The translations under genes were made by a program, and so were the position numbers. Positions 599 through 15,329 of a stretch of 29,699 bases of DNA are shown here, piece by piece (the first letter of the stretch is position 1; each line of letters begins with the position of its first letter). The stretch comes from a virus. Under the pieces are notes generated by a model. It did not search any database, was not told the origin of the DNA, and saw nothing but the letters and a program-made list of their open reading frames with translations. Where the stretch lies: IMG/VR virus record IMGVR_UViG_3300009593_000086, positions 1 to 29,699 of that record; one strand, given 5' to 3'.

Positions 599-916
599 AT
601 GGCAAGTCTTGATAAAAAAATAGAAGCATATATGGGAAGAACTGTAGATTTTATGGCAGAAGTAACTTTGCAAGATGATGGTAAAGGTGCATATATTGCT
701 GAATGGAATATAAAAGATAAAGCTAAACCAACAGATAGCCAACTTAAAGCTAAAGAATCTGATGCAGATAAATTAGAAAAAAATGCAAAAGTAATAGATA
801 ATAGAAAAGCTGAGTATGGAACTGTTGAACAACAGCTTGAATATATAACAGAAAATGGATTAACTAAGTGGCAAGAAAATGTTACTGCAATTAAGAAAAA
901 ACACCCAAAGGAATAG
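599..916 (+). CDS. Small fibre-associated protein, XkdW-like C-terminus (copy 1)
   Basis: 105 residues, starting 1 bp after the fibre stop. The C-terminal 35 residues, with a YGTVEQQLEYITENGLTKW segment and a KKKHPKE end, match the paralogue at 2617-2913 (YPSIKDQLDDIYHNGIDKW, KDKHPKE). This resembles the short C-terminal motif of XkdW-like phage proteins found next to fibre genes (Y-P-S-I-x-x-Q-L-D-x-I-Y then K-x-x-x-P-K). Such genes are thought to act in fibre assembly, but the function here is unknown. The N-terminal half is charged, without clear domains. Its coupling to the fibre gene suggests co-translation and a chaperone or accessory role. Confidence 0.65.
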   Translation: MASLDKKIEAYMGRTVDFMAEVTLQDDGKGAYIAEWNIKDKAKPTDSQLKAKESDADKLEKNAKVIDNRKAEYGTVEQQLEYITENGLTKWQENVTAIKKKHPKE

Positions 917-919
917 ATT

Positions 920-1525
920 ATGCCATTAAGTAAAATATTATCAGCAAGTATAGCAACGGGAGCAGTAGATGCGGGTAGTAATATTATAGAACAAATACAA
1001 GGAGTATGTGATGGTCGTTCTGTTACAGTTCCTAGTGGTACATATACAATGCCAAATGTTACAGCATTACAAGCATTAACAGGTAGTTATGCAGATGTTA
1101 CAGGTTCATCTTTTACATACAATCCTCCAAGTGGAACAACGAAAGTTGTGTATAATTTACACACTTGGTTTGTTAGAGATGGTGATTATCCTCTAGGTCA
1201 TTTCAGATTTTATGTTGACTCTGATGAAGCAACTAAATTTAGAAAAACTTTATATGGAGCATATCTTATTTATCCCGTAGATTTAAAATATATAATTACT
1301 ATTGGTGGAAGTGCTGATACAGCAAATGCAAATGTAGCATCGTGGTCATCTAATAAAACAATGAAAATACAAGCTAGAGAATATACTGATGGTTCAGGTG
1401 GTTCTACAAATACTGGAAATATGCACAAAATGGTTTATTTTGATGGTACAAGTGCAAGTGGTTCTGGAAATGGATCAACATATATAGCACCTACTTTAAC
1501 TATAACAGCATTAAAGGACACATAG
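920..1525 (+). CDS. Putative accessory fibre / host-recognition protein (copy 1)
   Basis: 201 residues, starting 3 bp after its neighbour with an AAAGGAAT ribosome site that overlaps the upstream stop. It is rich in Thr, Ser, Gly and aromatic residues and predicted mostly beta. It is clearly paralogous to 2917-3489: both have SNIIE near residue 20, a VTVPSGTYT stretch, a DVTGSS..Y.PPSGTT.V.Y segment, an FRFYVD/IKFFLD strand and an M.lQAREY motif. I have seen similar beta-sandwich proteins beside fibre genes in marine phages but know no defined function. Probably a virion or fibre accessory protein that contributes to host range. Confidence 0.6.
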   Translation: MPLSKILSASIATGAVDAGSNIIEQIQGVCDGRSVTVPSGTYTMPNVTALQALTGSYADVTGSSFTYNPPSGTTKVVYNLHTWFVRDGDYPLGHFRFYVDSDEATKFRKTLYGAYLIYPVDLKYIITIGGSADTANANVASWSSNKTMKIQAREYTDGSGGSTNTGNMHKMVYFDGTSASGSGNGSTYIAPTLTITALKDT

Positions 1526-1526
1526 A

Positions 1527-1745
1527 ATGACAAGAAAATTAGAAGATGCACTTAATGCAAGAAGAATGGAAAGAAATCTTTTATTACAATCCACAGATTG
1601 GGAAGTTATAAAAGCATTAGAATCGAGCCAAACAATTTCTGCTTCGTTAAAAAAATATAGACAAGAATTAAGAGATATAACAGAGGGTGTTAAAACTTTA
1701 GATGATTGTGATAATATGAAATTTCCAACTAGAGGAACTGATTAA
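1527..1745 (+). CDS. Phage tail assembly chaperone-like protein
   Basis: 72 residues. The pattern ERNLLLQSTDWEVIKAL, then KKYRQELRDIT, then a C-terminal KFPTRGTD, follows the Phage_tail_APC consensus (R-N-x-L-L-x-x-T/S-D-W ... Y-R-Q-x-L-R-D-I ... F/W-P). Members are small proteins encoded beside tail-fibre genes and are regarded as fibre or tail assembly chaperones. It is single-copy and sits between the two repeats of the fibre cassette. Its stop overlaps the start of the second fibre gene (TAATG), so translation is probably coupled. The family call is from pattern recognition. Confidence 0.65.
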   Translation: MTRKLEDALNARRMERNLLLQSTDWEVIKALESSQTISASLKKYRQELRDITEGVKTLDDCDNMKFPTRGTD

Positions 1746-2617
1746 TGGGATACCTAGGACAACAACCAACATCAGGTTCATTTAAAAAGCTAGATGCTAT
1801 ATCTACAGTTAATGGTCAGGCAGCTTATACTATGCAAAGTGGGTCGGCTAATTTTTCTCCAGCTAGTGCAAACCATATACTAGTAACTGTAAATGGAATT
1901 TTACAATCTCCAACCTCAAATTATACTGTTTCCGGCTCAACAATTACATTCACTTCAGCTCTTGTTACTGGCGATGTTATAAATAGTATTATTGTTTTAG
2001 GTGATGTTTTAAACATCGGAACACCAAGCTCTGGTACTGTGGGTATGTCGCAATTATCAGCAACCGGAACAAAAGATAGTACAACATTTTTAAGAGGTGA
2101 TAATTCTTTTGCTGTTCCAGGTGGAGGTAAAATATTACAAGTAGTATCTTTACATGAGGATGATCATTCAACACATTCAAATACAAATGTAGATTCTGCA
2201 GCAACAGTATTAAGTCAAGCAATTACACCTAGTGCAACAAGTAGTAAAATATTATTAATGGGAGGAGTGCAAGTTAACTCTAATACTGCAGTAGCATATT
2301 ATGGATTACAAATATTTAGAGGGTCAACACATATTGGAGAAGGTGATGCAAGCACTTGGAATAGTGGGGTAGGTGAAATGCACACAGGTAAATCTTATAA
2401 TTCATTTTATTATCCAGAAGAAAAATTGTCATTTTGTTTTGTAGATTCACCTAGCACAACATCAGCAACAACCTATAATATTAAATGTTTTGCAAACACC
2501 TATAGTGGAGGTTTAGGAAATAATACTTTAATAGTTAATGGTGCTGGTTATAACTACAATACTAAAGAAACTGGTATTTGTAGTTCAAATCTTATTTTAA
2601 TGGAGATAGGCGCGTAA
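1745..2617 (+). CDS. Tail fibre / receptor-binding protein (second fibre)
   Basis: 290 residues. The start MGYLGQQPTSGSFKKLD is typical of marine phage fibre proteins, followed by a beta-rich attachment-like domain (residues 18-95: YTMQSG, ILVTVNGILQSP, GDVINSIIVLGD). A linker with SQLSATGT and TFLRGDNSFA at about 104-124 is nearly the same as in the first fibre. The distal knob (about 130-290) is unrelated to the first fibre's knob and has the ITPSATSSKILLMGG pattern seen in other phage fibre tips. The layout suggests a fixed base and linker with an exchangeable knob. Stop and start overlap with both neighbours (TAATG). Confidence 0.75.
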   Translation: MGYLGQQPTSGSFKKLDAISTVNGQAAYTMQSGSANFSPASANHILVTVNGILQSPTSNYTVSGSTITFTSALVTGDVINSIIVLGDVLNIGTPSSGTVGMSQLSATGTKDSTTFLRGDNSFAVPGGGKILQVVSLHEDDHSTHSNTNVDSAATVLSQAITPSATSSKILLMGGVQVNSNTAVAYYGLQIFRGSTHIGEGDASTWNSGVGEMHTGKSYNSFYYPEEKLSFCFVDSPSTTSATTYNIKCFANTYSGGLGNNTLIVNGAGYNYNTKETGICSSNLILMEIGA

Positions 2618-2913
2618 TGGCTTTAATAGTAGATGCAATATTAGCTTTAGATTCAAAAGCAAAAGTAAAAGTAGTTAGCGAAGATTATGATAAAATTACT
2701 TGGCACGACAAAAACCCAAATAATATTACTGTTGACCAAATTAAAACAAAGAAAGCAGAATTAGATAAAGTAGACGAAGCTAATGCTTACAAAATGAAAA
2801 GAATAAAAGAATACCCGAGTATTAAAGACCAATTAGATGACATATATCATAATGGAATTGATAAGTGGAAAGAAACTATTAAAACAATAAAGGATAAACA
2901 CCCAAAGGAATAA
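2617..2913 (+). CDS. Small fibre-associated protein, XkdW-like C-terminus (copy 2)
   Basis: 98 residues, paralogous to 599-916 over the C-terminal third (EYPSIKDQLDDIYHNGIDKW, IKDKHPKE). This copy has the more canonical XkdW-like YPSIxDQLDxIYHxG motif. The N-terminal half (residues 1-55) is diverged and charged. The start codon overlaps the fibre stop. Role inferred from neighbourhood: fibre assembly or a fibre accessory. No catalytic residues are seen. Confidence 0.68.
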   Translation: MALIVDAILALDSKAKVKVVSEDYDKITWHDKNPNNITVDQIKTKKAELDKVDEANAYKMKRIKEYPSIKDQLDDIYHNGIDKWKETIKTIKDKHPKE

Positions 2914-2916
2914 ATT

Positions 2917-3489
2917 ATGGCAATACTTAGAGCAACAGCAAATACAGTAAGTGATTTATCTTTAGGTAGTAATATAATTGAAGTGCTATCTAGTCCTTGT
3001 AATGGTACAGCAGTAACAGTACCTAGTGGAACATATACAGTAACTGATGTAACAAGTGTTCAAAGTATGAGTGAATCTTATGTTGATGTTACTGGTTCAA
3101 GTATTAATTATACTCCTCCTTCTGGTACTACTAGAGTTAAATACAAATTTATTTTTCATGCTCAATATGATGGTTCAAATTATACTGGTATGCACATAAA
3201 ATTTTTTCTTGATGGTACAGAAGTTTCAGATGCAAGAAGAACAATATATGGTTATCTTTCATCAATGACAGAAGTATTTGAATATACAATTAATTGTAGT
3301 GCAAGTGGAGCAAATACAGCACATGGAGATATTACTTCTTGGACAAGTGCAAAAATAATGAAATTACAAGCAAGAGAATATAATAGTGGTAATCAATGTA
3401 AATTGAACCAAACTAGTTTATGGGATGGTGCTGGTACAAATCAATTTATTATACCATCAATAGAAATTACATCATTTAAGGATTCGTAA
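2917..3489 (+). CDS. Putative accessory fibre / host-recognition protein (copy 2)
   Basis: 190 residues, a paralogue of 920-1525 with the same segment order (SNIIE, VTVPSGTYT, DVTGSS, PPSGTT, IKFFLDG, MKLQAREYNS). The 3-bp gap and ribosome site before it are almost identical in DNA to those before copy 1 (CACCCAAAGGAATA then ATTATG). It ends the tail-fibre block. Beta-rich with no membrane segment. Function unknown; a surface-exposed virion role is inferred. Confidence 0.6.
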   Translation: MAILRATANTVSDLSLGSNIIEVLSSPCNGTAVTVPSGTYTVTDVTSVQSMSESYVDVTGSSINYTPPSGTTRVKYKFIFHAQYDGSNYTGMHIKFFLDGTEVSDARRTIYGYLSSMTEVFEYTINCSASGANTAHGDITSWTSAKIMKLQAREYNSGNQCKLNQTSLWDGAGTNQFIIPSIEITSFKDS

Positions 3490-7313: not shown

Positions 7314-7330
7314 CAGGGGAAAGAGATACT

Positions 7331-7475
7331 ATAAGAGTAACTATAAGTGTAACTATAAGTGTAACTATAAGTGTAACTAATAGTCTATATTATAAGAGTA
7401 ACTATAGGAGTAGTAATAAGAGTAACACTATAAGTATACTTAGGGTTAACTTAAAGAGTAACTGTAAGTGTACCT
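7331..7475 (+). repeat. 12-bp tandem repeat array (ATAAGTGTAACT)
   Basis: Four head-to-tail units fill 7331-7378 (ATAAGAGTAACT once, then ATAAGTGTAACT three times without mismatch). Degenerate units follow at 7392-7403, 7404-7415, 7416-7429, 7430-7440 and about 7464-7475. The array lies just after the terminase gene, where T7 has short repeat arrays flanking its terminal redundancy, so it probably marks the packaging end or terminal repeat. The unit also resembles the GGAGTAACTA leader before the early genes. Confidence 0.85.
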
Positions 7476-8268: not shown

Positions 8269-8505
8269 ATGCAAAATCAAGTTGATAAAATTAAAGTAAC
8301 TATAACCAGATATAAACACAGCTTCGCACCAGATGACAGAATAAGAATTGAAGCAAAAGGACATTATCACGATTATTGGTATCAAAAAAAAGATGATATT
8401 GTAGAAGCTTTGTTTAAAGCTATACGAATAAATGAAACTGAAACAATGGTAGATTATACATCTGATAAAAATTGTAATATTAAAAGCAAGTCTGACGAGT
8501 CTTAA
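8269..8505 (+). CDS. Early protein 2, unknown (78 aa)
   Basis: 78 residues with an AATAGGAGTAAAC leader. The sequence suggests a small alpha/beta domain: a strand KIKVTITRYKHS, a second strand DDRIRIEAKGHYHDYW, then a helix KKDDIVEALFKAIRI. No known family. Its last six codons and stop run into the first hammerhead ribozyme (8486-8545): the TAA stop lies in the loop of ribozyme stem II, so the tail SKSDES is shaped by RNA constraint, and ribosomes finishing this gene would unfold the ribozyme's 5' half. Confidence 0.65.
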   Translation: MQNQVDKIKVTITRYKHSFAPDDRIRIEAKGHYHDYWYQKKDDIVEALFKAIRINETETMVDYTSDKNCNIKSKSDES

Positions 8506-8545
8506 TTAGACGAAACTACCTAATTAATTTTAGGTAGTCATTTGC
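8486..8545 (+). ncRNA. Hammerhead ribozyme HHR-1 (type I)
   Basis: Stem I pairs GCAAGT (8486-8491) with ATTTGC (8540-8545), with one G-U pair. Core CTGACGA is at 8492-8498. Stem II is GTCT/AGAC (8499-8502, 8508-8511), GAAA is 8512-8515, and stem III is ACTACCTAA/TTAGGTAGT (8515-8523, 8530-8538). The cleavage triplet GUC ends at C8539. All invariant hammerhead positions are present, including G10.1-C11.1 and A15.1-U16.1; position 7 is C, which is allowed. The ends leave through stem I, making it type I. It lies between two early genes and overlaps the stop of the first. Not seen: the usual stem I bulge that docks with loop II. Confidence 0.9.
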
Positions 8546-8583
8546 AAAGGCAAATAAATTAATTTTTAAAGGAGTAACTATTA

Positions 8584-8772
8584 ATGAATAAACTATTAAA
8601 CAATCCAACAGTATTATTAGGCATAAGCCTTTTTTGTTTTATTATGGCCTTAACAAGTGCCGTTATATTTGTATTTGTTGATCCACCTACATTGATGCTT
8701 GAAGCATTTCTTGGATATACAATAGGAGGCATTGCCTTTTTTGTAATGGGAATGATTAAGGGGTTAGAATAA
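8584..8772 (+). CDS. Early two-helix membrane protein (62 aa)
   Basis: 62 residues: a short cytoplasmic start, TM1 about 10-32 (VLLGISLFCFIMALTSAVIFVFV), a PPT turn, then TM2 about 39-58 (AFLGYTIGGIAFFVMGMIKG). Leader AAAGGAGTAACTATTA. It is the first gene downstream of HHR-1, so after ribozyme cleavage its mRNA would start at 8540, 44 bases before the ATG. Early phage membrane proteins often block superinfection or alter the membrane; which applies here is unknown. Confidence 0.65.
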   Translation: MNKLLNNPTVLLGISLFCFIMALTSAVIFVFVDPPTLMLEAFLGYTIGGIAFFVMGMIKGLE

Positions 8773-8966
8773 TGACAACTGAAAAAGAAATTAGAAAAAC
8801 CATAGTAATTGTTTATAAGGATCTAAAAAAAGACTTTGATATTTTATTGGCTCAGGGTCAGCAAGAAACTATAGCTTATGACGTGGGATATATAAATTCA
8901 TTATGTAATATTTTAGGGAAGCATAATTTAGGGAGGTTAATATATAACAAGTTTATGCATAACTAG
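8772..8966 (+). CDS. Early protein, unknown (64 aa)
   Basis: 64 residues, coupled to the membrane-protein gene by TAATG. Mostly helical and charged (TEKEIRKTIVIVYKDLKKDF), then YDVGYINSLCNILGKHNLGRLIYNKF. No family recognised. Its TAG stop ends on base 8966, the first base of HHR-2 stem I, so ribosomes terminating here sit at the edge of the ribozyme. It shares a ribozyme-bounded segment (8540-9019) with the membrane protein. Confidence 0.6.
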   Translation: MTTEKEIRKTIVIVYKDLKKDFDILLAQGQQETIAYDVGYINSLCNILGKHNLGRLIYNKFMHN

Positions 8967-9025
8967 TCTAACTGATGAGCTTTCATTAAGCGAAACTACC
9001 TAATTAATTTTAGGTAGTCTTAGAC
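8966..9025 (+). ncRNA. Hammerhead ribozyme HHR-2 (type I)
   Basis: Stem I pairs GTCTAA (8966-8971) with TTAGAC (9020-9025), all Watson-Crick. Core CTGATGA is 8972-8978. Stem II is GCTT/AAGC (8979-8982, 8988-8991), GAAA is 8992-8995, and stem III is ACTACCTAA/TTAGGTAGT (8995-9003, 9010-9018). The triplet GUC cleaves after C9019. Positions 8991-9019 are identical to 8511-8539 of HHR-1, while stems I and II differ in sequence but keep pairing. That covariation strongly supports the fold. Cleavage would leave a 27-base leader with GGAGTAACTAACA before the 9047 gene. Confidence 0.93.
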
Positions 9026-9046
9026 AAAAAAAAGGAGTAACTAACA

Positions 9047-9655
9047 ATGAACTATAACACACTTAAAATTACTCAAGGTAGTGGCAAAATGGAAAAACTA
9101 AAATCCATTAACACAAATACTTTGACTAATGAATTTTGTATAAAGCAAAGTAAAAACAAAAATGTTATTTGTAGCTCTTGCTATTCTATAAATAACTTAA
9201 AAACTTTTAGGAAAAGTTGTGTACCATCAAGGCAACACAATTCAGATCTATTAGACAAAAAAATAATTCATAAGGAATTACTACCAACAATACTTGATAT
9301 TTATTTCAGGTTTAATTCTGATGGTGAACTTATAAACGATATACATTTAATTAACTTGTTAAATATTTGTGAAAAGAATAAACACACAACCTTTGCTTTA
9401 TGGACTAAAAGAAAAGATTTAGTTTATAAAGTAGAAAGTAAAAGGAAGCTTCCAAAAAACTTAATATTAGTTTTTAGTAATTCACAAGTTGATAAACCAT
9501 TAAAAACTACACCTCGACTATTTCATAAAACTTTTAACAGTGTCTCAGATACTTTTGATAAAAGTGCCATTAATTGTTCTGGAAAATGTGTTGAGTGCCT
9601 TAAGTGTTATGTAAAAGATAACAATATCAATCAAATTGTAGAGGTAATGAAGTAA
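9047..9655 (+). CDS. GP88-like cysteine-motif early protein
   Basis: 202 residues with a perfect AAAGGAGTAACTAACA leader. Features in order: KNKNVICSSCYSI (about 37-49) with a CxxCY motif, FRKSCVPSRQ, a FRFNSDGELIND segment (about 88-99), TTFALWTKRKDL (about 114-125), LPKNLILVFSNSQVDKP, then a cysteine cluster CSGKCVECLKCY near 177-188. This order resembles phage Gene product 88 domain proteins (C-x-x-C-Y, R-x-x-x-x-G-D/E, F-x-x-Y/W-T-K), which look like metal or Fe-S cluster proteins of unknown role. It is the largest early gene and the first after HHR-2. The next gene starts on its stop. Confidence 0.55.
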   Translation: MNYNTLKITQGSGKMEKLKSINTNTLTNEFCIKQSKNKNVICSSCYSINNLKTFRKSCVPSRQHNSDLLDKKIIHKELLPTILDIYFRFNSDGELINDIHLINLLNICEKNKHTTFALWTKRKDLVYKVESKRKLPKNLILVFSNSQVDKPLKTTPRLFHKTFNSVSDTFDKSAINCSGKCVECLKCYVKDNNINQIVEVMK

Positions 9656-9810
9656 TGGAAGATAGACATTTTCAACTAGTAAACAAAAACGATTCTTTAG
9701 ATTTTGATTTAATTCTAAGAGTTAACGACACTGGCGAGAAATATACAAGTATCGATATTTTTGATTATACGAACCAGGAAATAATACAAACTATAAAAAT
9801 TAAGGAGTAA
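9655..9810 (+). CDS. Early small acidic protein (51 aa)
   Basis: 51 residues from ATG 9655 (TAATG overlap). Predicted alpha/beta (LVNKNDSLDFDLILRVND, then YTSIDIFDYTNQEIIQTIKI). Slightly acidic, no family recognised. The stop TAA (9808-9810) lies inside the GGAGTAAC leader of the next gene, so the two are tightly coupled: the protein's final K-E codons are the Shine-Dalgarno bases. Confidence 0.55.
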   Translation: MEDRHFQLVNKNDSLDFDLILRVNDTGEKYTSIDIFDYTNQEIIQTIKIKE

Positions 9811-9816
9811 CTAACA

Positions 9817-9990
9817 ATGGCAAGATCTAATGAAGATTTTATTGTCTATATAAAGCAATGGCTACAAAATGAAGTAGATAGAACTGAACTATGTGAAGAG
9901 GATTTTTGTGAAAACAAAAAAGATTTTATTCACTATGGTAGGCAAAAATGTGCCTTTGATTTACTAACACTAATAAAACAAAAGGAGTAA
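9817..9990 (+). CDS. Early small acidic protein (57 aa)
   Basis: 57 residues with a full GGAGTAACTAACA leader. Helical, three Cys, acidic N-terminal half (EDFIVYIKQWLQNEVDRTE, LCEEDFCENKK), then HYGRQKCAFDLLTLIKQKE. No family recognised. The stop lies inside the ribosome site of the next gene, as in its upstream neighbour: the same KE-stop end is reused. Function unknown. Confidence 0.55.
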   Translation: MARSNEDFIVYIKQWLQNEVDRTELCEEDFCENKKDFIHYGRQKCAFDLLTLIKQKE

Positions 9991-9996
9991 CTAACA

Positions 9997-10155
9997 ATGA
10001 CAAATTACGAAAGAGAAAAAACACTTTTACTAATGATTAACGATAGGCCTGAAATGGTCACTGAACTATTAACTAAAAAATATGGCTATACACTAAGTCA
10101 ATTACAACTCAGGAGAAATAACAATATAAGTTTAAATGGCACTGATGAGAAATAA
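9997..10155 (+). CDS. Early small protein (52 aa) ending inside HHR-3
   Basis: 52 residues with a full leader. Helical: YEREKTLLLMINDRPEMVTE, then LLTKKYGYTLSQLQLRRNNN, which resembles a small helix-turn-helix (a Y-G-Y/L-T-L-x-Q-L-Q-x-R recognition-like helix), though too short to assign. The last codons (NGTDEK) and stop (10153-10155) form ribozyme HHR-3 stem I, core and stem II, so the protein's tail is constrained by the RNA. Confidence 0.55.
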   Translation: MTNYEREKTLLLMINDRPEMVTELLTKKYGYTLSQLQLRRNNNISLNGTDEK

Positions 10156-10200
10156 TAATTTCGAAAAGGGGAGATCGTTAAGGTCTCCTCTTATGTCATT
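10135..10200 (+). ncRNA. Hammerhead ribozyme HHR-3 (type I, UUA cleavage triplet)
   Basis: Stem I pairs AATGGCA (10135-10141) with TGTCATT (10194-10200), one G-U. Core CTGATGA is 10142-10148. Stem II is GAAAT/ATTTC (10149-10153, 10158-10162) with an AATA loop, and GAAA is 10163-10166. Stem III is AAGGGGAGA/TCTCCTCTT (10166-10174, 10184-10192), with one G-U. The predicted triplet is UUA, cutting after A10193; it fits the NUH rule but is less usual than GUC. Its stems share no sequence with HHR-1 or HHR-2 beyond the core, so it is an independent example of the same design. It sits between early genes and overlaps the upstream stop. Confidence 0.88.
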
Positions 10201-10225: not shown

Positions 10226-10468
10226 ATGACTAAACAATATAAAATATATAAAAGAACTGTCCACGAGGATAGAGGAATCTATATAAGTTTTGGCATTGAG
10301 GAAGATGTCAAGGATTGGAAAGAGGAGTCGCAGCGATGGATTGAGCAAGATCTAGGTGTTGGTGATGATACCATTGAGGAGTTAGAAATAACATCCTCTG
10401 ATCCAAACATCACTAAAATATTAGGTGTTATTAATGAACACATAAGGGAGAAGAGTGATGACGATTAA
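10226..10468 (+). CDS. Early acidic protein (80 aa)
   Basis: 80 residues from ATG 10226, preceded by AAAAGGAGTAACATTATT. An open frame extends to ATG 10136, but those 30 codons are HHR-3 sequence and lack a ribosome site, so the downstream start is chosen. The protein is acidic: YKIYKRTVHEDRGIYISFGIEEDVKDWKEES, then DDTIEELEITSSDPNITKI. Predicted beta then alpha. No known family. It resembles the next protein in size and charge. Its end overlaps the next gene by 11 bp. Confidence 0.6.
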   Translation: MTKQYKIYKRTVHEDRGIYISFGIEEDVKDWKEESQRWIEQDLGVGDDTIEELEITSSDPNITKILGVINEHIREKSDDD

Positions 10469-10673: not shown

Positions 10674-10715
10674 AAAAAAAAAAGAGCTAGGCGAGTAACT
10701 AATTCTCCTAGCTCT
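10674..10715 (-). terminator. Rho-independent terminator on the minus strand
   Basis: AGAGCTAGG (10683-10691) pairs with CCTAGCTCT (10707-10715). Ten A residues lie at 10674-10683 on the + strand, so read on the minus strand the stem is followed by ten T. On the + strand no T-run follows, only AAGGAGG, so it would not terminate early-gene mRNA in the usual way. All genes here are on +, so it may block antisense transcription, or act as an mRNA hairpin. Confidence 0.6.
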
Positions 10716-10730
10716 AAGGAGGTTATAACA

Positions 10731-11220: not shown

Positions 11221-11554
11221 ATGCTTTTATTGTCTAGATGATATTTACCAATGTTTTCAGGAATACGATACTGAAATGTTAGTACAAACAATGAGAACTT
11301 TTTTAAATATTGCTATGGCAAGTGAAAGTATATCAATGCAAAAACTTGTACATAATTTAAATATGCCACAATCGACACTGTCTAGAAATGTTGCAACATT
11401 ATCTGCAATAAATAGACACAGAGAGAAAGGTCATGAATTGGTAGAGTCTTTTGAAGACCCTACTGATAGGAGAAACAAGCTAGTCAAACTTACATATAAA
11501 GGTGAGAGATTAGCTGAGAGAATACATACAAAATTAAGTTCTTGTATACATTAG
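11195..11554 (+). CDS. MarR-like winged-helix regulator
   Basis: 119 residues, leader AAAGGAGTAACC. Residues 30-75 fit a winged-helix core: MRTFLNIAMASESISMQKLVHNLNM, then PQSTLSRNVATLS as recognition helix (about 58-70). The wing SFEDPTDRRNKLVKLTYKGERLAERI (about 85-110) is the MarR-type D-x-x-D-x-R-x-K-x-V-x-L-T-x-K-G signature. Likely DNA-binding. It lies directly upstream of tRNA-Leu and the integrase, so a role in the lysis-lysogeny choice or excision is plausible. Its TAG stop ends on the first base of the tRNA. Confidence 0.7.
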   Translation: MINKAQRNECFYCLDDIYQCFQEYDTEMLVQTMRTFLNIAMASESISMQKLVHNLNMPQSTLSRNVATLSAINRHREKGHELVESFEDPTDRRNKLVKLTYKGERLAERIHTKLSSCIH

Positions 11555-11640
11555 GAGGTGTGATGAAATTGGTAAACATGCTGGATTCAAAATCCAGTGA
11601 ACTTTGGTTCTTATGGGTTCGAATCCCATCACCTCTACCA
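11554..11640 (+). tRNA. tRNA-Leu (anticodon CAA)
   Basis: A complete class II cloverleaf of 87 bases. The acceptor GGAGGTG (11554-11560) pairs with CACCTCT (11630-11636, first pair G-U), then A73 and encoded CCA. The D-arm is ATG/CAT with a GG in the loop. The anticodon stem CTGGA/TCCAG holds loop TTCAAAA, anticodon CAA. The long variable arm pairs GAAC/GTTC, and the T-arm is ATGGG TTCGAAT CCCAT. It decodes UUG, a common Leu codon at this GC. It lies beside the integrase gene, so it probably carries the attachment site. Its first base is the last base of the upstream stop codon. Confidence 0.92.
11577..11640 (+). other. Probable attP core within the tRNA-Leu 3' part
   Basis: Integrases encoded beside a tRNA-like sequence normally recombine in the anticodon-to-3'-end part of the matching host tRNA. 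Pelagiphages of this type are known to integrate into host tRNA genes. The integrase start is 32 bp downstream. The exact core cannot be set without the host sequence, so the given span, anticodon arm to CCA, is a guess. Confidence 0.45.
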
Positions 11641-12884: not shown

Positions 12885-15329
12885 ATGGCAGATAAGATAA
12901 AAGAGCAAGTAAACCTTGAGGAACAAATAAACCTAGAGCTTGAGAGTCGAGTGTTAGGCATCAATAGATATGAGAAAAACAACGAGAAGAAAAAAGACAG
13001 AGGTCAGGAAGCAACTACAGATTATGCCAAGTATTTAGTTAAACATTACATACAACCAGTGGCTGATAAACTTGATGAGTATATAGCTAATGAAAAAGCA
13101 AAGAATAGTCCAGTGTTAAGAGCACAAGCTATTGAGAACTTACAATTAATAGAGCCTGATAAAGCAGCAATTATTACATTGAAGACTTTACTTAACAATG
13201 CAACTAGAAGAAAACCTGCTACATCTACATTTATTAAAATTGGCAAACACATTTTAGACGAAATAAATTGTGAAGCTATGGCAGAACAAAATCCAGAATT
13301 GTTTACTAAAATTTATTCTGATTTAAAAAGTAGAAATGCAGGATATGAATATAGTCGCAGAAAATATTTAGAAGCATCACAAAGAGATGGTCTTCAAAGG
13401 ATAGAGTGGACTGTAAAAGATAAACTCCGAGTAGGAAGAACTTTATATGTCATAGTAGAATTAGTAAGTGATTTATTCTCAGAGTTAGATTTTAGAAAAG
13501 GTAAAAAGGTACAGAAATTTATAAGTCCAACTGATAAATGTATTAAATGGATAAAAGAAAAAAAGCTAAGAGGTTCAATATTACATCCTGAAAGATTACC
13601 AACAGTTGTAATACCAAAATTATGGCAGTCACCTTATGGAGGTGGCTATTACTCTAACCATCTACCACCACTTACTGTAGTCAAAACAAAAAACAATAAA
13701 TATCTTCAAGAGTTGTCTGAGAAAGATATGACTGGTGTTTATGATTCTATAAATATTTGTCAGGAAACACCTTTTGTTATTAATAGAGAAATCCTGAAAG
13801 TACAAAAACATTTTTGGGAGAAAGGTCATACTGTTGGATCAATTCCTGGTGATCTTAAAGATGAGAAACCAATCAAACCAAGTGAAGAGTCATTAAAAAA
13901 CAAAGAGATACTTAGAAAGTATAAAGCTCAGATGGTAGTGTGGTATGGAGAGGTGGAAAGACATAAATCAAAACAGATACAATGTGCAAAAACATTTGAG
14001 TTAGCTGATAAGTTTTACAACTATAAGTTTTACTTTCCTTATCAATTAGATTTTAGAGGTAGGCTATATGCAACTACTGCCTTTTTAAATCCACAAGGAG
14101 CTGATTATCAAAAAGCATTACTAACTTTTGCCAATGCAAAATCATTAGGGGAGCAAGGTGCATGCTATCTTGCAATTCATGGCTCTAATTGTTTTGGATA
14201 TGATAAGTGCTCTTTTCAAGATCGAATAGATTTTGTTGAAAAAAATAGTGATAACATAAAAGCTTCAGCCGAAAATCCTTACAACAATAAATTTTGGATG
14301 GATGCAGATGACCCTTGGCAGTTTTTAGCTTTTTGTTTAGAATGGAAAAATTTTTTAGATCAAGGAACAGAATACAAAAGTTCACTACCAATATCTATGG
14401 ATGCAACTTGTTCAGGTCTTCAACACTTTAGTGCATCAATACGAAGCTTAGTAACTGGCAAACAAGTCAATATGATTCCTAGTGACGTGCCTGCTGATAT
14501 TTATCAAAAGGTTGCAGATAATGTCATACTGAGATTACAAAAAGAAGAAAACCCCTTTGCTAAAAAGTGGTTAGATTTTGGTGTTGATAGAAGTATAGCT
14601 AAAAGACCTACCATGACAATATGCTATGGCAGTAGACAATATTCTTGGACTGATTTTGTAAATGAAATAGTTCAGAAAAGAAAAGAGAAAGGTCACATGC
14701 ACCCTTTTGGTGATGAGCTATTAAAAGCTTGTAGCTACCTTGCAAAAATTATGTGGCAGGTGGCCAGTGATGTAATTGAAGCTGCATCTAAGGTAATGAA
14801 ATGGTTACAAGATGTCGCACGAATTGCCAGTGCCGAAGGTATTCCTATAGTGTGGTATACACCTATGGGTTTTCCAGTGCAACAAGCTTACGAAAACTAC
14901 AAGCCACTGCAAATACAAACAAAACTAATGGGAAAAGTTTTTAGACCACAACTTAAAGTTTCAAATGAGAATCTTAATAGTAAGTGGGATAAAAGAAAAC
15001 AAGCAGCAGGAGTTTCACCTAACTGGGTGCATGCTCTTGATAGTTGCCATTTACAAATGACTTTATGCACTGCTTTTGCAGAGGGTATAAAAGATTTTGC
15101 TATGGTGCACGATAGTTATGGAACACTAGCTGCTGATGTAGAACGTCTTGGTGAATGTTGTAGAGCAACTTTTGTTGATATCTACAAGAGCCATGATGTG
15201 TTAATGGATTTTAGGAATGACATTATTTCAATGCTTCCTGAATCAAAAAAGAATGAAGTTCCGATGCCACCAAAAAAAGGAGATCTAATTATAGATCAGG
15301 TATTAGAATCTGAGTTCTTTTTTTCATAA
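12885..15329 (+). CDS. T7-like single-subunit RNA polymerase
   Basis: 814 residues (T7: 883), start with ATAAGGAGTAGTA upstream. Seen in order: DFRGRLYA (389-396), SMDATCSGLQHFS (504-516; D506 = T7 D537), KRPTMTICYGS (573-583; K573 and Y581 = T7 K631 and Y639), a specificity-loop region around 655-690, HALDS (716-720), VHDSYGT (741-747; D743 = T7 D812) and an aromatic C-terminal end FFFS like the T7 FAFA foot. It transcribes middle and late genes from phage promoters and is itself probably made from host-polymerase transcripts. The 208-bp gap before it holds the integrase-proximal repeats and AT-rich sequence. Confidence 0.97.
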   Translation: MADKIKEQVNLEEQINLELESRVLGINRYEKNNEKKKDRGQEATTDYAKYLVKHYIQPVADKLDEYIANEKAKNSPVLRAQAIENLQLIEPDKAAIITLKTLLNNATRRKPATSTFIKIGKHILDEINCEAMAEQNPELFTKIYSDLKSRNAGYEYSRRKYLEASQRDGLQRIEWTVKDKLRVGRTLYVIVELVSDLFSELDFRKGKKVQKFISPTDKCIKWIKEKKLRGSILHPERLPTVVIPKLWQSPYGGGYYSNHLPPLTVVKTKNNKYLQELSEKDMTGVYDSINICQETPFVINREILKVQKHFWEKGHTVGSIPGDLKDEKPIKPSEESLKNKEILRKYKAQMVVWYGEVERHKSKQIQCAKTFELADKFYNYKFYFPYQLDFRGRLYATTAFLNPQGADYQKALLTFANAKSLGEQGACYLAIHGSNCFGYDKCSFQDRIDFVEKNSDNIKASAENPYNNKFWMDADDPWQFLAFCLEWKNFLDQGTEYKSSLPISMDATCSGLQHFSASIRSLVTGKQVNMIPSDVPADIYQKVADNVILRLQKEENPFAKKWLDFGVDRSIAKRPTMTICYGSRQYSWTDFVNEIVQKRKEKGHMHPFGDELLKACSYLAKIMWQVASDVIEAASKVMKWLQDVARIASAEGIPIVWYTPMGFPVQQAYENYKPLQIQTKLMGKVFRPQLKVSNENLNSKWDKRKQAAGVSPNWVHALDSCHLQMTLCTAFAEGIKDFAMVHDSYGTLAADVERLGECCRATFVDIYKSHDVLMDFRNDIISMLPESKKNEVPMPPKKGDLIIDQVLESEFFFS

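Follow-up and report, generated by a model that had tools for sequence, protein, structure and literature searches.

The stretch of DNA analysed here (the window, 29,699 nt) comprises positions 1 to 29,699 of the IMG/VR record IMGVR_UViG_3300009593_000086, an uncultured virus contig. Between its terminase and integrase genes lies a region of small early genes, most of them without family in the neighbourhood considered here, and it is in this region that three type I hammerhead ribozymes (HH1, HH2 and HH3) are located. The hammerheads and the genes that flank them are the following.

8269..8505, + strand: early gene of 78 aa preceding HH1, no family; it ends within HH1, which contains its last codons and stop
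8486..8545, + strand: HH1, type I hammerhead, found by descriptor (covariance model 55.4 bits; RF03152 31.1 bits, below gathering); stem I 8486-8491/8540-8545, CUGACGA 8492-8498, stem II 8499-8502/8508-8511, GAA 8512-8514, stem III 8515-8523/8530-8538
After C8539, + strand: predicted cut of HH1 (C17)
8584..8772, + strand: early gene downstream of HH1, 62 aa; predicted leader after the cut 44 nt, ribosome site AAAGGAG
8772..8966, + strand: early gene upstream of HH2, 64 aa; replaced by unrelated genes in every relative compared
8966..9025, + strand: HH2, type I hammerhead, found by descriptor (covariance model 60.7 bits; RF03152 33.6 bits, below gathering), in 9/9 contigs spanning its site; stem I 8966-8971/9020-9025, CUGAUGA 8972-8978, stem II 8979-8982/8988-8991, GAA 8992-8994, stem III 8995-9003/9010-9018
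After C9019, + strand: predicted cut of HH2 (C17)
9047..9655, + strand: early gene downstream of HH2, 202 aa, Pfam GP88; predicted leader 27 nt
9997..10155, + strand: early gene upstream of HH3, 52 aa; its stop codon is inside HH3
10135..10200, + strand: HH3, type I hammerhead, found by descriptor (covariance model 20.2 bits), with orthologues in contigs L005, L006, L060, L088 and L099; stem I 10135-10141/10194-10200, CUGAUGA 10142-10148, stem II 10149-10153/10158-10162, GAA 10163-10165, stem III 10166-10176/10182-10192
After A10193, + strand: predicted cut of HH3 (A17)
10226..10468, + strand: early gene downstream of HH3, 80 aa; predicted leader 32 nt

A lenient hammerhead descriptor (core CUGANGA, GAAA and UH; stems of at least 3, 3 and 4 bp), applied to the 29.7 kb window, gives three complete type I hammerheads and no others; all three are on the coding strand. 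These are the three elements with open stem I that a first-pass annotation of the sequence had proposed, and the cut sites which it had predicted at 8539, 9019 and 10193 agree with the descriptor result. Each of them forms a three-helix junction with open stem I, carries the core CUGANGA and GAA together with A15.1-U16.1 and a residue other than G at position 17, and has stems I/II/III of 6/4/9 bp (HH1 and HH2) or 7/5/11 bp (HH3). Chance matching was ruled out as their origin, given that the descriptor matched 3 times when the window was dinucleotide-shuffled 300 times, a rate of about 0.01 per window, and not once in 0.93 Mb of reversed locus sequence used as a control. When the window is searched with a covariance model trained on 38 phage hammerheads, HH1 and HH2 among them and HH3 not, HH2 is recovered with an E-value of 3e-18, HH1 with 2e-16 and HH3 with 3e-4, and no further match below E 0.3 is obtained. 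Judged from sequence, HH1, HH2 and HH3 are confirmed as real type I hammerheads.

The scan with Rfam hammerhead models that had been recommended with the first-pass annotation calls none of the three at the gathering threshold, and only a sub-threshold alignment is obtained. Thus, RF03152 (RAGATH-1-hammerhead) aligns end to end with HH2 and HH1 at the scores given above, against a gathering score of 56.3 bits, and its search yields no match for HH3. The core and the type I layout of the three elements are those of RF03152 and RF00163, although all of them fall below the curated thresholds. RF00163 behaves similarly: of the 28 hammerheads that the descriptor finds in seven of the phage loci, no more than 2 reach its gathering threshold. 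Standard Rfam annotation would miss most such phage hammerheads. In the Rfam alignment, the 5'-flanking stem of RAGATH-1 is visible. A weak Rfam match to the DUF2815 RNA (window 8531-8586; 21.9 vs 41.2 bits) starts on the 3' strand of HH1 stem III, and the DUF2815 RNA motif might partly consist of hammerhead remnants located 5' of phage genes. The reading of the three sites as terminators was rejected, as there is no U-tract after stem III and a terminator scan finds none there. BLASTN of the hammerhead region against phage records gave no match.

Regarding their position, HH1 and HH3 reach 20-21 nt into the 3' end of the upstream frame, whose stop codon falls in their stem-loop II region, and the 5' end of HH2 is the last base of the upstream stop codon. 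The next start codon is found 44 nt (HH1), 27 nt (HH2) and 32 nt (HH3) after the cut. It had been stated that each hammerhead sits between the stop of one gene and the leader of the next; the downstream start is indeed where this description places it, but none of the three is cleanly intergenic. The same arrangement recurs among 83 different phage hammerheads with enough flank, compared with the expectation for random positions. A called stop codon lies within -30 to +40 of the 5' edge in 70 of them (15% expected), a start codon at most 60 nt from the cut in 60 (14% expected), and both a stop and the next start accompany 51 (3.9% expected), none of the 83 being wholly inside a gene.

The conservation of the hammerheads was followed in contigs of the window's clade, which were collected by terminase search (98-99% terminase) regardless of the presence of hammerheads, orthologues being placed by synteny and their stem pairs read by positional parse. 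HH2 is present in all nine contigs that span its site (the window, L003/L112, L004/L117, L005/L105, L060, L082/L103, L088, L099/L109 and L100/L104), and all its stem pairs are kept across the 8 orthologue sequences, so that the fold is conserved in related phages, a point on which the first-pass annotation had made its proposal depend. In stem II, pair 2 shows a two-sided change from C-G to A-U in four contigs, and all four letters occur among HH2 orthologues at N7, the one free position of the core. U3 and A8 replace C3 and G8 in the core of three contigs, which provide natural U3-A8 hammerheads (L003 about 329-388; L004 2329-2388; L005 5193-5252); this C3U and G8A change has been described as a natural covariation, for which activity in vitro is cited (Perreault et al. 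2011, PMC3088659). HH3 is intact in L005, L006, L060, L088 and L099, and in the last of these stem III has been rebuilt through three two-sided changes. Stem covariation is therefore found on orthologues placed by synteny. The alignment of 38 sequences agrees with it, and is not used as proof because its sequences were selected for pairing. Across phage hammerheads, loop II is conserved as U-N-A (U1 in 63/65, A3 in 58/65), a feature not required by the searches and present in HH1, HH2 and HH3, which points to a tertiary contact, possibly between stems I and II, that may have been kept.

The phage to which the window belongs can be placed by its gene order, which runs from the early genes through MarR, integrase, RNA polymerase, SSB and primase to DNA polymerase. 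Together with a single-subunit RNA polymerase, this is the layout of Pelagivirus-like Autographiviridae, and the order of early genes, MarR-like gene, integrase, RNA polymerase and SSB agrees with that of HTVC019P-type phages. The polymerase gene is the feature that bounds the early region.

12885..15329, + strand: T7-type RNA polymerase gene, marking the end of the early region

The closest polymerases are those of Pelagibacter phages Eistla and HTVC031P, to which that of the window is 41% identical, and since this identity is only about 41%, membership in the genus Pelagivirus is not claimed.

Whole phage records were then searched with the covariance model, to which Eistla, HTVC168P, HTVC109P and HTVC019P had contributed, the other eight positives being independent. 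At least one strong hammerhead is present in 12 of the 16 Pelagivirus genomes tested: Eistla (2), HTVC168P, HTVC109P, HTVC019P, HTVC031P, HTVC142P, HTVC201P, HTVC304P, the uncultured S35-C6 (2), HTVC022P (2297-2359 of MH598798), Ran and HTVC131P. The strong Pelagivirus matches number 14, and every one of them precedes the RNA polymerase gene, on the coding strand. The records of Eistla, HTVC168P, HTVC109P, HTVC019P, HTVC031P, HTVC142P, HTVC201P, HTVC022P and S35-C6 contain no hammerhead annotation. Strong matches were absent from three Votkovvirus genomes, Bylgja, HTVC120P, HTVC309P, three roseophages and T7, and in five Pelagibacter phages without strong hammerheads no other ribozyme class was found in Rfam at E 0.5. 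Degenerate hammerheads also occur (L184 234-285, i.e., HTVC031P 308-359, and L220 1501-1548, from S28-C10), in which the 5' half is kept and UH or the stems are lost, showing decay of hammerhead elements.

Longer same-strand arrays were found by a pattern scan of viral contigs followed by a model search of the full records. The largest holds nine hammerheads in 4.3 kb (G056; L194 2448-6719), another holds eight (G030), four hold seven each (G027, G040, G047 and G052) and one holds six (G029). In the array of nine, a hammerhead lies between most successive genes, and the stop codon is typically in stem I; the start codons of this phage lack an obvious Shine-Dalgarno sequence (ATT-ATG). G027 and G030 encode a T7-type RNA polymerase, and all seven hammerheads of G027 are upstream of the polymerase gene.

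Taking these data into account, it is probable that HH1, HH2 and HH3 act as self-cleaving type I hammerheads that would divide the early polycistronic RNA of a T7-like, Pelagivirus-related phage into shorter mRNAs. Their conservation, their confinement to the early region in Pelagivirus and their placement at stops and starts would fit cutting of the early transcript in cis. According to this proposal, each hammerhead would fold during transcription and cut the RNA that contains it, shortly after the end of the upstream gene. As expected from hammerhead chemistry, the stem III hairpin, bearing a 2',3'-cyclic phosphate, would then form the 3' end of the upstream mRNA, and the downstream mRNA would start with a 5'-OH and a leader of 27-44 nt bearing a strong ribosome site. 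Both new ends should resist common decay routes, so that cutting would split the early RNA into shorter units and uncouple the stability and translation of neighbouring mRNAs. The early transcript of T7 is cut between genes by host RNase III, which leaves 5'-phosphate and 3'-OH ends. In both cases the cuts would fall between early genes of a T7-like phage transcript; however, a host protein acts in T7, whereas RNA catalysis leaving 5'-OH and cyclic phosphate ends is predicted here, and the likeness is one of analogy only. Structure, conservation and placement are observed features, and from them we infer the cleavage, the chemistry of the ends and the effect on the mRNAs. The ribozyme-based processing of early mRNA suggested in the first-pass annotation is strengthened to this extent by conservation and placement, the cutting of these particular RNAs being its conjectural part.

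Several results weigh against this proposal. HH1 was found in the window only and not in its relatives, HH3 is degenerate in L003/L004 (U4C, with the first stem II pair lost), and no intact HH3 was found in L082 and L100. Moreover, four of the 16 Pelagivirus genomes (HTVC121P, 021P, 048P and 105P) lack a strong match, which means that such phages can live without the ribozymes. When 150 nt of upstream sequence are included in equilibrium folds, none of the three hammerheads forms stem I for the most part, and in HH1 its predicted probability falls from 0.83 to 0.05 as the downstream GCAAAU emerges. Given such a weak stem I in long folds, cutting would need to be fast and co-transcriptional, or the RNA would have to be kept open by the ribosomes of the upstream gene.

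Two refinements of the processing proposal, unlikely when taken jointly, concern the timing of the cut and its outcome. Since the stop codon sits within the ribozyme or at its 5' boundary, the ribosome finishing the upstream gene could cover the core, so that cutting would occur only between ribosomes, once the upstream gene has been translated. The second refinement involves the RNA that would be released by the HH1 cut, which can be drawn as a hairpin at its 5' end.

8540..8555, + strand: possible hairpin AUUUGC-AAAG-GCAAAU at the 5' end of this RNA

This hairpin excludes stem I because it uses the 3' strand of that stem. In HH1, HTVC168P and S35-C6, and in Eistla with 5 bp, refolding of the freed stem I strand might make the cut irreversible and shield the new end. 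Among 96 hammerheads, nine tight 6-bp leader hairpins are seen against 2.2 expected, an enrichment that is suggestive. General refolding of leaders was discarded, given that a loose test remained at background level and only the tight 6-bp hairpins were enriched. If true, translation gating and the hairpin would constitute a one-way, timed system for dicing the RNA of early phage genes.

It could be argued that each ribozyme regulates one gene next to it, its cleavage perhaps being tuned by a ligand or protein; a start codon lies close to each ribozyme, and a GP88-like gene follows HH2 in 6 of the 8 contigs compared. However, in the window and seven relatives HH2 is flanked by five unrelated genes upstream and two unrelated genes downstream, in varying combinations, so that it stays while the genes on its two sides change independently. 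This exchange of genes around a kept HH2 favours RNA processing over one-gene control as its role. Furthermore, the flanking genes across phages are mostly small open reading frames of inconstant identity, as also described in a review (PMC6155905), and no additional conserved domain was noticed around the ribozyme, which makes gene-specific regulation unlikely.

A favoured recombination joint would present the same picture of a hammerhead kept amid exchanged genes. The ribozymes could then be short conserved boundaries for swaps of early genes, their catalysis being incidental or lost. HH2 behaves as a conserved joint between exchanged genes, and the 24-nt stem III of HH1 is identical to that of HH2, although their stem I differs in all six pairs. 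Because of this common stem III and of the similarity of HH1 stems I and II to the hammerhead of L076, the ribozymes may have been copied or recombined between sites. Nevertheless, a mere joint would not need ribozyme features, and the compensatory stem changes, the free N7, the U3-A8 pair and the conserved loop II speak of selection on precisely these. We consider this explanation, taken alone, quite improbable, bearing in mind that the roles of joint and ribozyme are compatible.

It is still less probable that the hammerheads are decaying relics, inactive in vivo. The degenerate copies in L003/L004 (HH3), HTVC031P and S28-C10 point in this direction, as do the unfavourable equilibrium folds in long context. 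However, at a divergence that leaves the adjoining gene about 70% identical, the core of HH2 and of most HH3 orthologues is still intact or compensated; thus, between the window and L060, HH2 is 90% identical and the adjoining GP88 gene 70%. Finally, the production of circular mRNAs, in which tandem cuts would free RNA with 5'-OH and cyclic phosphate ends (right for the internal fragments 8540-9019 and 9020-10193) and a host ligase would close the circle, as in retrozymes, is very hard to sustain, as circular or spliced products were sought and not found by Perreault et al. 2011 (PMC3088659) and most Pelagivirus genomes have one hammerhead only, which cannot free an internal fragment.

Other features of the window were recorded alongside the hammerheads. 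A complete tRNA-Leu (CAA) gene at 11554-11640, directly 5' of the integrase gene, is a likely attachment site. In an attempt at host assignment, neither an exact match to the 3' half of this tRNA nor a match to a prophage terminase was found in the bacterial genomes searched. Just after the terminase gene, a gene-free stretch (7314-7426) with five imperfect copies of the 12-bp unit TAACTATAAGTG is a possible site of the genome end or of an early promoter. Between early genes, at 10679-10720, there is a strong inverted repeat, GAGCTAGG...CCTAGCTC, without hammerhead core or U-tract and followed by AAGGAGG, which could be a different processing or regulatory hairpin. In the tail region, a gene set is present in two successive copies (599-3489, where 599-1525 resembles 2617-3489), and a DNA repeat is found at 62-122 and 2052-2112.

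Hammerhead clusters that flank genes in prophage genomes are already known, and the processing of long phage RNAs was proposed for them; tandem sets from phages cleave in vitro, and one set does so in Escherichia coli (Perreault et al. 2011, PMC3088659). The window shares their organisation, in that its several hammerheads lie on one strand and each is next to a single gene or a short run of small open reading frames. In contrast, those clusters belong to prophage regions with inconstant genes, whereas the hammerheads described here occupy the early operon of a T7-like phage group, at a position conserved in relatives, some of them cultured, and elsewhere form arrays of up to nine. In a 2017 review, the role of prokaryotic hammerheads was called open, and their link with phages was noted (PMC6155905). 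No report for pelagiphages or T7-like early operons was found in the open-access literature, subscription journals and preprints being mostly outside the search. The first-pass annotation knew of no report of a hammerhead series in such an operon, and no such report was found; as a claim of novelty this was too strong, since both the clusters and their supposed role had been described. The part for which no report was found is the conserved early-operon series of T7-like pelagiphages.

The setting is unusually clear, consisting of early operons of T7-like phages, several of which are in culture. Cultured phages of the ocean bacterium SAR11 contain hammerheads that their records do not annotate, that are conserved and that occur in the early region only; among these phages is HTVC022P, for which RNA-seq of infection is public (PRJNA1253180; PMC12753301). 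The processing hypothesis can thus be tested directly by mapping read ends at a known site, and these data may already hold the answer on cutting. In this way, a long-standing guess about the role of ribozymes in phages becomes testable through cultured relatives of the window phage. If the cutting proves true, some T7-like phages would have RNA-based cutters of their own within the early operons.

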